35,847 nt of DNA from Acidimicrobiia bacterium. GTDB taxonomy: Bacteria > Actinomycetota > Acidimicrobiia > Acidimicrobiales > Aldehydirespiratoraceae. The position numbers were made by a program, and so were the translations under genes. Below, one piece after another: positions 17,160 to 19,876 of the stretch (its first letter is position 1; each line of letters opens with the position of its first letter). A model generated the notes under the pieces. It was not told where the DNA came from. It searched no databases and was given only the letters and a program-made list of their open reading frames with translations. The DNA is taken from assembly GCA_021296315.1 (NCBI GenBank), contig JAGWAO010000011.1:53312-89158 (forward strand), given 5' to 3'.

Positions 17160-17678
17160 CTAGGAGGGGCCTACCAGGGCTTGGACCAGCTCGTCGAAGG
17201 CGGAATCGGCGATAGCCGTCATCTCGTCGTCGGTCTGGTCCTGGATGGGGTGGCGGGTCAGTACTGCTGCCGCGTCGAAGCCCAGGGAATCCGACTGGGC
17301 GGTCACCGCCGAGGCGAACTGCACCGTTGACACGAATACGCCCGGGACGCCGCGGCGCTCGATGTCGCTGATGTCGTGCACACTGCACGACACGCAGGAG
17401 CCTCAATCGGCGAGGGCCTCGATCACCGCGTCGCACTCGGTGGCGATCTCATGTCGCAGGTCCACGGGGGCGGGCTTGGTGAAGGTCGGCTTGGTGTAGC
17501 GGTTGACGGTCGCGCCGAGTCCGCTGAGGCGTTCGGAGACGCGGTCGAGGAATACGTTGCCGCGGGGCTTGGAGATGTCGAGCAGGCCGACGGTCAGGCC
17601 GGCCAGCGACTCGGGCCGGGTCGCCCGTTCCCGTGTCGCCGGGGTCTGCTCAGAGGTGGGGTCGAGGACGGTAATCAT
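17160..17678 (-). CDS. UGSC family selenoprotein with in-frame TGA (Sec92)
   Basis: One gene read through an in-frame TGA at 17405-17403; a standard gene call would split it or truncate it. ATG at 17678 has a strong GGAGG seven bases upstream. The product is 172 residues including selenocysteine at 92. Upstream of the TGA the protein reads T-V-G-L-L-D-I-S-K-P-R-G-N and ends C-D-A-V-I-E-A-L-A-D; then U-G-S-C-V-S-C-S-V-H-D follows, with the same frame and similar codon use on both sides. D-U-G-S-C is the defining motif of the UGSC family, known as selenoprotein or Cys homologues in marine and environmental bacteria. A SECIS-like hairpin lies just after the TGA. Function in the family is not established; a redox role is inferred from U-x-x-C and the thioredoxin-fusion gene 43 bases upstream. 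The alternative is a nonsense mutation. selA, selB, selC and selD are not in the window. Confidence 0.82.
17371..17393 (-). promoter_or_regulatory. Bacterial SECIS-like hairpin
   Basis: On the minus strand the arm GTGTCGTGCA (17393-17384) pairs with TGCACGACAT (17380-17371): nine Watson-Crick pairs plus one G-U, closing a three-base GTG loop. The arm begins 9 bases and the loop 19 bases after the TGA. In bacterial SECIS elements the apical loop lies roughly 16-37 nt after the UGA and carries a G at its start, as here. It lies wholly inside the coding frame. Confidence 0.75.
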
Positions 17679-17721
17679 CGGATGGCCTCCTTGAGGGGGT
17701 GAGGGTAGTCGCGGGCCGGTC

Positions 17722-19179
17722 TCAGGGCGTGATCTCGCGGGTGACCGGGTCGCTGCCTCTCGGTCCGTTGGCCCAGCCGCCGACGATGGCCGAGAACAGC
17801 CCGGCCGCGCCGCCGGCATGCGCGACCAGCAGCCCGCCGGGGCGGAACTTCGGGACCTTCTGGCCCGCTGCCGCGGGGGGCAGGCCCGCGGCGACGCCCC
17901 TGAAGCCGGCCAGCAGCTCGTCAGCGTCGCAAAGCAGCTCGGCCGACAGCTCCTCCATGAAGCGGTCCCGGCTCCAGCCCGCGTCGGCGTAGCGGGCCAT
18001 GTGCTCGGGCGACAGCACCAGCATGGCGTCCATACCGAGCATCATCCTGGGCGACACCGTCGCCTGCAGGGCCTGGGCCAGGTGCCTGGTCAGCGAATCG
18101 GGAGTGCGGGACCGCTCATCGGCGAAGATCCTCGGCGACTCTCCCGCGAACACGGTCACCGTGGATTGGTTCGCTCGCCATCCCCGGCTCTCGGCCAGCG
18201 ATGTCCACGGCGAGCCCGCCTCATCCTCGGCGAAACAGAAGCCAACCTTCGCCGGCGAGCCGAACGTGGCCCGGTCGACGCCACCGGGGTGACCGCCGCC
18301 CACATTGCGCACCACCAGTTGCAGGGCCCGGCCGATGGTCGAGTTGGCCCGGTTGCCCTGGCCCAGCGCATTGAGCCCGTGGTTCATGCCGATGCGCTTC
18401 GCCACCGGTCCGTTCACCACCAGCACCGGTCCTACGCTCATGGTGGTGGCCAGCACGCCGTGCATGTTGAAGTCGTCGGTGCAGGCGGCTTTGAGCGCCG
18501 CGATCACCACCGGCAGGTGCTCGGGCGCGCAGCCGGCCATCACCGCGTTGACGGCCACCTTCTCGACGGTGCACTCGATCAGGCTGGGCGGCACCACCGC
18601 CACGATCTCGGTCCGGTCGCGGGTCGTGCCCTCCAGCATCCGGAGCACTCTCGCCTCGGTGGGCGGCACCACGGGCAGGCCGTCGGACCAGCCCCGGTGG
18701 AACATCGCCTCCCACTCGTCCTCGAGGGAGGCCAACTCCACCCGACGGCTGTGAAGGCGCGAGCCCGAGAAGCGAACAGCAAGCTCGTCCGCGTATGCGG
18801 GATCGACGCTGAGGGATCCGCAGCCCGGTCGCCAGTCGGGCAGCCCCTCGCCCAATCCGTCCACGCCGGTGCACTGTTCCCACTCGTGGCGTGACCAGCC
18901 CACCGTTCGCTGGTCCTCGACGCCGTTAACCACCCGCACCAGTGTGGGAACCGCCTCGATGTCGTGGTGCCAGGACAGGGCTAGGTCGTCGTCGTGGCGA
19001 ACCCACTCGGCAGCGATGGGAAACTCCGGGTCGTCTTGGGTGATGACCGTCAGTCCGGCCCGCTCGTGCAGGTCGTGGAGCACGGGCGCAACCAGCTCGC
19101 AAGTGGGGCAGTCGCGCTTGACCACCGCCACCAGCCCGTTGGGCAGTGGCGGCGCCGATGACAGGTCAGGGCTCATCAT
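17722..19179 (-). CDS. Thioredoxin-domain fusion protein, selenoprotein neighbour
   Basis: A 485-residue cytoplasmic protein. The first 110 residues look like a thioredoxin domain: V-A-V-V-K-R-D-C-P-T-C-E-L with C24 and C27, a long helix, then the cis-Pro motif E-A-V-P-T-L-V-R-V near residue 80. The remaining 370 residues are a separate domain that I do not recognise by name, with W-S-D-G-L-P-V-V-P-P-T-E near 168, V-P-P-S-L-I-E-C-T-V-E-K-V-A-V-N-A-V-M-A-G-C near 200 and several Gly-rich conserved-looking stretches. Two adjacent ATGs can start it; a CACAAT box lies six bases before the second (19176). It is followed 43 bases downstream by the UGSC selenoprotein gene, so the two are probably one operon and may form a redox pair in which the CPTC site reduces the selenoprotein. 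That role is an inference. Confidence 0.72.
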   Translation of the reverse strand: MMSPDLSSAPPLPNGLVAVVKRDCPTCELVAPVLHDLHERAGLTVITQDDPEFPIAAEWVRHDDDLALSWHHDIEAVPTLVRVVNGVEDQRTVGWSRHEWEQCTGVDGLGEGLPDWRPGCGSLSVDPAYADELAVRFSGSRLHSRRVELASLEDEWEAMFHRGWSDGLPVVPPTEARVLRMLEGTTRDRTEIVAVVPPSLIECTVEKVAVNAVMAGCAPEHLPVVIAALKAACTDDFNMHGVLATTMSVGPVLVVNGPVAKRIGMNHGLNALGQGNRANSTIGRALQLVVRNVGGGHPGGVDRATFGSPAKVGFCFAEDEAGSPWTSLAESRGWRANQSTVTVFAGESPRIFADERSRTPDSLTRHLAQALQATVSPRMMLGMDAMLVLSPEHMARYADAGWSRDRFMEELSAELLCDADELLAGFRGVAAGLPPAAAGQKVPKFRPGGLLVAHAGGAAGLFSAIVGGWANGPRGSDPVTREITP

Positions 19180-19351: not shown

Positions 19352-19876
19352 ATGACCAGCGGCGACGGCGGAGGCTCTGTGGACGGGCGGGAGTTCCGCC
19401 GGGTGCTGGGCCACTACCCGACGGGCGTGACCGTAGTGACCGCGACCTGCCCCGGCGGTCCCGAGGGACTGACCATTGGGTCCTTCACCAGCGTCTCGCT
19501 GGACCCGGCGCTGGTGTCGTTCTGTTCGGGTCACGATTCCGACTCGTGGGCCCGGATGCGCGATGTCGGCAGCTTCTGCGTGAACGTGCTTGCAGACGAT
19601 CAGGCCGATCTGTCCACCACCTTCGCCAGTAAGACTGGAGACAAGTTCCGAGACGTGAGCACCAGGATCGAGGCCACCGGCGCCCCGGTCTTTGAGGGAT
19701 GCCTGGCCTGGATCGACTGCCGCGTCGAGACGATCCATGTGGCCGGCGACCATGACATTGTGGTGGGTCGGGTGGTAGCCCTCGGCACCGCCGACAGCGC
19801 CGCAGACCCTGGTGCAGCAATGAACGGGCCGCTGGTGTTCTTCAAGGGCAGCTACAGCCGGATAGTGGGGCTGTGA
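19352..19876 (+). CDS. Flavin reductase family protein
   Basis: A 174-residue protein of the flavin reductase-like, FMN-binding split-barrel family. These proteins bind FMN or FAD and reduce it with NAD(P)H, usually to feed a two-component monooxygenase, or act as flavin-bound oxidoreductases. The family pattern is clear: F-R-R-V-L-G-H-Y-P-T-G-V-T-V-V-T-A near residue 14, G-L-T-I-G-S-F-T-S-V-S-L-D-P-A-L-V-S-F near 38, G-S-F-C-V-N-V-L-A near 72 and a closing P-L-V-F-F-K-G-S-Y. No monooxygenase partner is encoded nearby. A GTG nine codons later is an alternative start. A 45-nt hairpin element and then the gamma carbonic anhydrase gene follow. Confidence 0.85.
   Translation: MTSGDGGGSVDGREFRRVLGHYPTGVTVVTATCPGGPEGLTIGSFTSVSLDPALVSFCSGHDSDSWARMRDVGSFCVNVLADDQADLSTTFASKTGDKFRDVSTRIEATGAPVFEGCLAWIDCRVETIHVAGDHDIVVGRVVALGTADSAADPGAAMNGPLVFFKGSYSRIVGL

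Follow-up and report, generated by a model that had tools for sequence, protein, structure and literature searches.

The window, a stretch of 35,847 nt from an Acidimicrobiia bacterium, contains a frame of 172 codons that is interrupted by a single TGA. This locus raises the question of whether the TGA is read as selenocysteine (Sec) and, if so, in what kind of enzyme the encoded protein takes part. The first-pass annotation placed the TGA (17405-17403) within D-U-G-S-C, behind a start with a strong GGAGG, and assigned the gene to the UGSC family. We recovered the same frame and motif, with an ATG start codon (17678-17676) and the GGAGG at 17690-17686, and the family assignment held against both curated profiles, as described below.

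A UGSC-family gene with an in-frame TGA

17160..17678, minus strand: gene of a UGSC-family selenoprotein (172 residues counting Sec, followed by a stop; profile matches and alignment)
17403..17405, minus strand: in-frame TGA, almost certainly read as selenocysteine (same codon in relatives: TGA in 79/80, TAG in 1/80)
17686..17690, minus strand: GGAGG ribosome-binding site of the UGSC gene (sequence)

The window protein scored 147.7 bits against PF24696 in Pfam (curated cut-off 25) and 144.9 bits against NF041046 in NCBIfam (curated cut-off 125). Sec occupies position 92 and begins the motif U-G-S-C-x-x-C. The UGSC family was in print by 2008; it is given as 8.2% of selenoprotein genes in a passage of PMC9402790, and the relevant passage of a 2026 review (PMC13188914) places it among the families with functions largely uncharacterised. 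Its known members share the UxxC motif, with Sec or Cys at the site, and nothing in the window gene falls outside the family, of which this gene is itself an ordinary member. What this analysis contributes concerns the UGSC-partner pair described below rather than the UGSC gene as such, namely the partner gene, the TGA forms of the partner and the link to the selenoproteins GrdB of glycine reductase and PrdB of D-proline reductase, enzymes of glycine and proline breakdown.

A scan of genome contigs yielded 275 relatives, and the 80 best of them were retained for comparison; these 80 should not be considered independent, because nearly all are metagenome-assembled and most come from Acidimicrobiia. 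Homologues without the downstream part had been named in the first-pass annotation as grounds for abandoning the Sec reading; all 80 kept relatives match the window query on both flanks of the Sec codon. The single TAG was found in Blastococcus sp. DSM 44205 (L096), in which a 10-bp hairpin is kept. This agrees with the UGSC-motif selenoproteins with a CUA tRNA-Sec reported for Geodermatophilaceae in a passage of PMC5330540, and adds nothing new to it. We aligned the window sequence with those of 42 of the 80 loci (alignment A1, 43 sequences) and, separately, a wider set of 47 UGSC members from which fusions were left out (A4). With Sec written as C, U-G-S-C was invariant in all rows of both alignments (43/43 and 47/47). 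The extended motif with three chalcogens, U-G-S-C-x-x-C, was present in 43/43 sequences of A1, and UxxCxxC was invariant in that alignment only, since Cys98 varies in the wider set.

The genome of the window (G000) contains three UGSC genes; all have TGA, and a separate partner accompanies each of them. The two further genes lie at G000:C25:40921-41424 and G000:C80:22114-22611, beside paralogues of the partner, and the pair on C25 is located about 5 kb from selA-selB.

The hairpin downstream of the TGA

17371..17393, minus strand: SECIS-like hairpin (10-bp stem with one G-U pair; loop GUG at 17383-17381)

The 10-bp stem with one G-U pair and the GUG loop 19 nt from the TGA, which had been described in the first-pass annotation, are all present: the 5' arm spans 17393-17384 and the 3' arm 17380-17371, and the stem lies 9 nt from the TGA. 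The predicted stability was -16.2 kcal/mol, against a mean of -8.0 (sd 3.2) for 3000 synonymous-codon shuffles of the window stretch. The single hairpin taken alone is suggestive and not decisive, because 1.5% of the shuffles were as stable and 4.2% had a stem as long.

Comparison of 81 sequences, including that of the window, provided evidence of a different kind. The fifth pair from the loop was G-C in 54 sequences, G-U in 14, A-U in 12 and unpaired in one, and broken pairs were found at pair 1 (4 sequences), pair 7 (23), pair 8 (3) and pair 9 (61). Pairs 2, 3, 4 and 6 were invariant and are thus uninformative. The core of the hairpin across the family is therefore about 6-8 bp, not 10, since pairs 7 and 9 are often broken. 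In a survey of paralogues, the motif was found in 14 of 30 loci (one of the 14, L143, does not encode a UGSC protein and was left out), and the loop offset of 19 nt was also observed in six distant Sec paralogues (L098, L099, L109, L110, L152 and L153). Changes on both sides of a pair were seen in L098 (U-A to G-U) and in L099 and L109 (C-G to G-C). The hairpin was absent from the Cys forms L103 and L104 and was not seen in the Sec fusion L106, and its offset was different in L134 (Cys form) and L107 (Sec fusion). The UGSC gene of L135 has a Cys codon (TGC) and retains a hairpin of 8 bp at the usual offset, which would fit a recent loss of Sec.

Selenocysteine machinery

The source genome is an 86% complete bin of 2.66 Mb in 83 contigs. 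The first-pass annotation had proposed searching it for selA, selB, selD and tRNA-Sec, and had regarded a complete genome without selB, selC and selD as evidence against Sec. The three protein genes were found, all above cut-off (selA 369.7, selB 286.7 and selD 362.3 bits), with selA and selB in tandem on contig C25, and tRNA-Sec was recovered only as two truncated copies (L003, G000:C27:10827-10915; L004, G000:C68:5444-5535). The first 76 nt of both copies are those of the gene in the six same-genus relatives compared, and both depart from it at one and the same position; a search of the bin that allowed up to two mismatches did not recover the 3' part. These copies could reflect a hot spot of integration, a gap in the bin or a mixture of two strains.

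We also analysed a sample of 296 genomes of the phylum. SelB was detected at E <= 1e-60 in 184 of them (176 above the curated cut-off), and a tRNA-Sec match of at least 65 bits was obtained in 10 of 12 same-genus relatives, so that the sparse use of Sec expected for this kind of actinobacterium in the first-pass annotation was not borne out. At the same threshold, SelB was present in 17 of the 18 genomes with a TGA-type UGSC gene and in none of the four with only stop-free forms (Fisher p 0.0007). The one TGA-bearing genome without SelB was G036, which is 94% complete; G284, which has TGA and stop-free forms together, has SelB.

A nonsense mutation, a sequencing error or a truncated gene, with the hairpin as a by-product of coding, would be consistent with the lack of an intact tRNA-Sec in the 86%-complete bin, with the proportion of shuffles that equal the hairpin in stability or stem length, and with G036. 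We consider this explanation highly improbable, given that a stop is kept at the same codon in 80/80 relatives, that SelB follows the TGA forms across the phylum sample, and that selA, selB and selD all occur in G000. These observations, together with the paired changes in the hairpin, uphold the Sec reading proposed at the outset, and the window gene almost certainly encodes a selenoprotein of the known UGSC family.

A near-obligate partner gene

17722..19179, minus strand: partner gene (485 aa; thioredoxin fold containing CPTC at the N-terminal end, PG(C/U)G site, C-terminal large domain)

The gene immediately upstream of UGSC, which we refer to as the partner, ends 43 nt before the UGSC start; the residue at its PG(C/U)G site is Cys120 in the window. 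Among the best 80 of the 275 relatives, the partner adjoins UGSC in 79 loci, with the two genes within 153 nt of each other in 78 of these pairs and a 4-nt overlap in 18. L091, the sole locus without it, has a UGSC match starting at base 49 of the contig. Across the phylum sample, the large domain of the partner was found in all 22 genomes with UGSC above cut-off and in one (G183) of the 274 without an above-cut-off UGSC; G196 and G271, with sub-cut-off UGSC matches, lacked it. The large domain was adjacent and on the same strand for 33 of 36 above-cut-off UGSC matches, upstream in 26 cases and downstream in seven, four of which are fusions. Of the three remaining matches, one lay at base 736 of its contig, another was partial and the third was a fragment of 59 residues. 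The partner is thus near-obligate for UGSC, and the two proteins very probably act together. In G183, which has no UGSC match, four large-domain matches occur in two long frames of contig C272.

The fusions (L105-L108) have the UGSC part first, and their active sites read U-G-S-C in L105, U-D-G-C in L106 and U-P-G-C in L107, with neither Sec nor Cys in L108. The last of these genes (G136:C25, 5391-7109) comes from an AT-rich genome and lies near ABC transporter genes, an aldehyde dehydrogenase and an FAD oxidoreductase. A fusion of UGSC to an uncharacterised conserved domain, Unknown_1, appears in the GOS paper (PMC2398784), in which this domain is also described as a stand-alone protein of a small number of aquatic organisms. 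Unknown_1 is perhaps the domain of the partner, as fusion with UGSC is common to both; the passages of PMC2398784 that deal with it mention neither a pairing of genes nor a Sec form, unlike what was found for the partner here.

The thioredoxin part is not shared by all partners. Across the phylum, 14 of 38 matches to the large domain extend into it and 24 do not, so a built-in reductant is not general, and the two other partners of G000 also lack this part.

Several searches bore on the identity of the partner. The C-terminal large domain had no Pfam or NCBIfam match. At E <= 0.1, the Pfam matches of 53 partner members were to TraF (17), Thioredoxin (7) and three other thioredoxin-type families, with the remainder to SDA1_HEAT (3) and XPC-binding (1), both taken for chance; the best NCBIfam match was to thioredoxin (E 1.7e-5). 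Assignment of the partner to a known family was rejected on these results. A search of PDB sequences with the partner profile gave thioredoxins only, on the N-terminal part, in the 60 of 104 matches listed, and a single partner sequence gave two matches (E 0.038). The predicted model (pLDDT 88.2) likewise has an N-terminal thioredoxin fold, and no Foldseek match of this predicted structure to the PDB reached E 0.001. We do not claim a fumarase identity for the large domain, since the best match, a fumarase subunit, had an E value of 1.3e-3 and TM scores of 0.24 / 0.35.

Sec forms of the partner

In eight of the 79 partner matches (L059, L060, L061, L062, L064, L077, L080 and L086) we found exactly one stop, a TGA, at one site (PG-U-GSL). 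This site aligns in 76 sequences, those of the window and 75 of the 80 loci, and its codon is TGC in 58, TGT in 10 and TGA in 8. All eight TGA partners have a hairpin with the loop CGGGC 20 nt after the TGA and a stem of 6-9 bp, which in L086 includes one compensated pair; when the same loop start and loop size were imposed, the 68 Cys partners formed 0-2 bp. With the offset left free, 16 of these 68 had a stem of at least 6 bp elsewhere, so stem length alone fails to separate Sec from Cys partners. In synonymous shuffles of four of the eight genes, 2-23% equalled the hairpin in stem length and 6-23% in stability. The eight genes are all from Acidimicrobia-type bins and may share a single origin, so their support for Sec amounts to a shared position in perhaps one lineage. 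The partner is apparently a second selenoprotein in some bacteria, judging from these sequences.

The Cys forms of L025 and L033 carry an 11-bp hairpin at an offset of 16 nt after the Cys codon, which may be due to chance.

A partner gene with Sec is not mentioned in the UGSC passages of eight papers on UGSC selenoproteins, and Table 1 of PMC13188914 (119 families and subfamilies) has no family like it. On these passages and this table, the partner seems to be an unlisted selenoprotein family. Among the matches listed in a search for selenoproteins of Acidimicrobiia, no paper was on this subject.

Predicted structure of UGSC and its relationship to GrdB and PrdB

The predicted UGSC model (pLDDT 93.4) is parallel beta/alpha, with residue 92 between a strand (84-90) and a helix (93-108). 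Its Foldseek matches to the PDB were weak (best E 2.8e-5, TM 0.45) and, among the 50 listed, included flavodoxin-like proteins, lumazine synthase chains and others. A thioredoxin fold, suggested for UGSC in 2008, was rejected on the basis of this model, which had no thioredoxin among the 50 matches listed. Sequence searches of the PDB with UGSC gave nothing significant.

The model TIGR01917 (glycine reductase selenoprotein B) matched 27 of the 47 UGSC members at E <= 0.01, with a best E value of 1.8e-5 that is still well short of the model cut-off, and the match of the window protein spans 78-123, around Sec. PF07355 (GrdB) matched none of the 47 at E <= 0.1. We then compared profiles with hhalign, using as template 13 full-length GrdB-like proteins and four short PF07355 proteins from the phylum. 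UGSC aligned with this combined template over 62 columns with 92.3% probability (E 5.6e-7 for one comparison), Sec on Sec; the probability was 46.9% with the full-length GrdBs alone and 57.7% with the short proteins alone, and reversed-profile controls gave 0.2, 0.2 and 1.4% (1.4% for the combined template). UGSC thus appears, from its sequence profile, to be a real but distant homologue of the Sec domain of GrdB/PrdB (PF07355, TIGR01917 and TIGR04483). The UxxCxxC motif of the window clade is common to both, being stated for GrdB in a passage of PMC13188914.

Gene order is also similar, as a gene of PF09338, the family of GrdE, which is the partner of GrdB/PrdB, lies directly upstream of the GrdB-like Sec gene in L162-L164, in the place that the partner occupies with respect to UGSC. 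The two systems differ in that GrdB-like frames are of 433-443 aa, with UGSC far shorter, and in that the partner is unlike GrdE-like proteins by profile comparison and has, in the window clade, a thioredoxin module. Many UGSC hosts are, moreover, actinobacteria that we take to be aerobic, unlike the setting of GrdB/PrdB. The partner was compared with eight GrdE-like upstream proteins, in three of which, those scanned, PF09338 was confirmed; hhalign gave 0.1%, and the partner was rejected as a GrdE homologue. The 13 full-length GrdB-like genes of the phylum (L154-L166) have an in-frame stop at the Sec position (TGA shown in seven), and some are preceded by GrdE-like genes.

Genomic neighbourhood

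19352..19876, plus strand: flavin-reductase-domain gene (PF01613), divergent from the partner (domain match only)

The UGSC-partner pair stands beside selB in at least 17 of the 80 loci; selA is also present in 14 of these and selD in nine. The count of 17 is a lower bound because many loci are short. Around ten paralogue loci we chose 98 neighbouring ORFs, and 20 of these, from six loci, were scanned. In L103 the first downstream gene encodes a family III CoA-transferase and is followed by that of an acyl-CoA dehydrogenase; in L110 the downstream genes include a permease and an ABC ATPase that has a CBS domain; and a protein with no match, a luciferase-like monooxygenase and a nitroreductase lie upstream in L098, from G000. 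This suggests a catabolic role for some UGSC paralogues, with no substrate common to them.

The neighbours also bear on a quite different function, in which Sec and the nearby cysteines would bind or detoxify a metal or metalloid. The three chalcogens of U-G-S-C-x-x-C in 43/43 window-clade sequences would suit such a role, for which a passage of PMC13188914 provides a precedent, proposed there for Sec families such as SaoB and SaoC. We consider it improbable, as Cys98 varies in the wider UGSC family and no metal transporter or resistance protein was present among the 20 scanned neighbours.

A putative two-part selenoenzyme

We propose that UGSC and the partner form one two-part selenoenzyme with a reductive attack like that of GrdB/PrdB, an explanation to which, taken as a whole, we assign a probability of about 0.5. 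The product of the upstream gene and UGSC would form a physical complex, in which the reactive Sec would lie where a helix begins, adjacent to Cys95 and, in the window clade, to Cys98, as in GrdB/PrdB. The large domain of the partner, unrelated to UGSC, would hold a small substrate, and the selenium would attack it reductively, cleaving a C-N or similar bond as GrdB/PrdB do. In the window clade, the thioredoxin module of the partner and its conserved Cys/Sec would then return UGSC to the reduced form.

The separate parts of this proposal are not equally secure. That the chemistry is a reduction of the GrdB/PrdB type is argued by analogy, and we place it slightly short of even odds. It is possible, and here we lean somewhat against it, that the pair represents a new class of selenium-dependent substrate reductases, in which a GrdB/PrdB-type Sec domain is combined with an unrelated substrate protein, with a thioredoxin of its own in one clade, and which has been duplicated and diversified for actinobacterial catabolism, the partner being an unlisted selenoprotein family; on this reading, selenium would serve in certain Acidimicrobia at either end of a single electron relay.

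Alternatively, a thioredoxin domain and a Sec protein could form a generic module for thiol-disulfide or peroxide redox reactions with no dedicated small substrate. The UxxC motif of UGSC, the thioredoxin domain of the partner and the position beside selB, as for a core redox gene, are all consistent with this. We nevertheless regard it as unlikely: the predicted fold of UGSC is parallel beta/alpha rather than that of a thioredoxin, the thioredoxin module is missing from most large-domain matches, and genes of catabolic type adjoin some paralogues. With the two-part selenoenzyme, the near-obligate partner, the fusions, the Sec/Cys site of the partner and the homology to GrdB/PrdB come together as a testable two-protein enzyme, for which the residues to mutate and the proteins to co-express can now be named.

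Other candidate selenoproteins

The selD gene of G000 (G000:C30:23119-24033; L100, L017) has one in-frame TGA of its own near the start, and its product looks like a further selenoprotein. Weak matches to the thioredoxin part of the partner alone (profile positions 13-120), with one TGA each, were found in G073:C29, G095:C14, G138:C6 and G213:C194, and perhaps correspond to a stand-alone thioredoxin-like selenoprotein.
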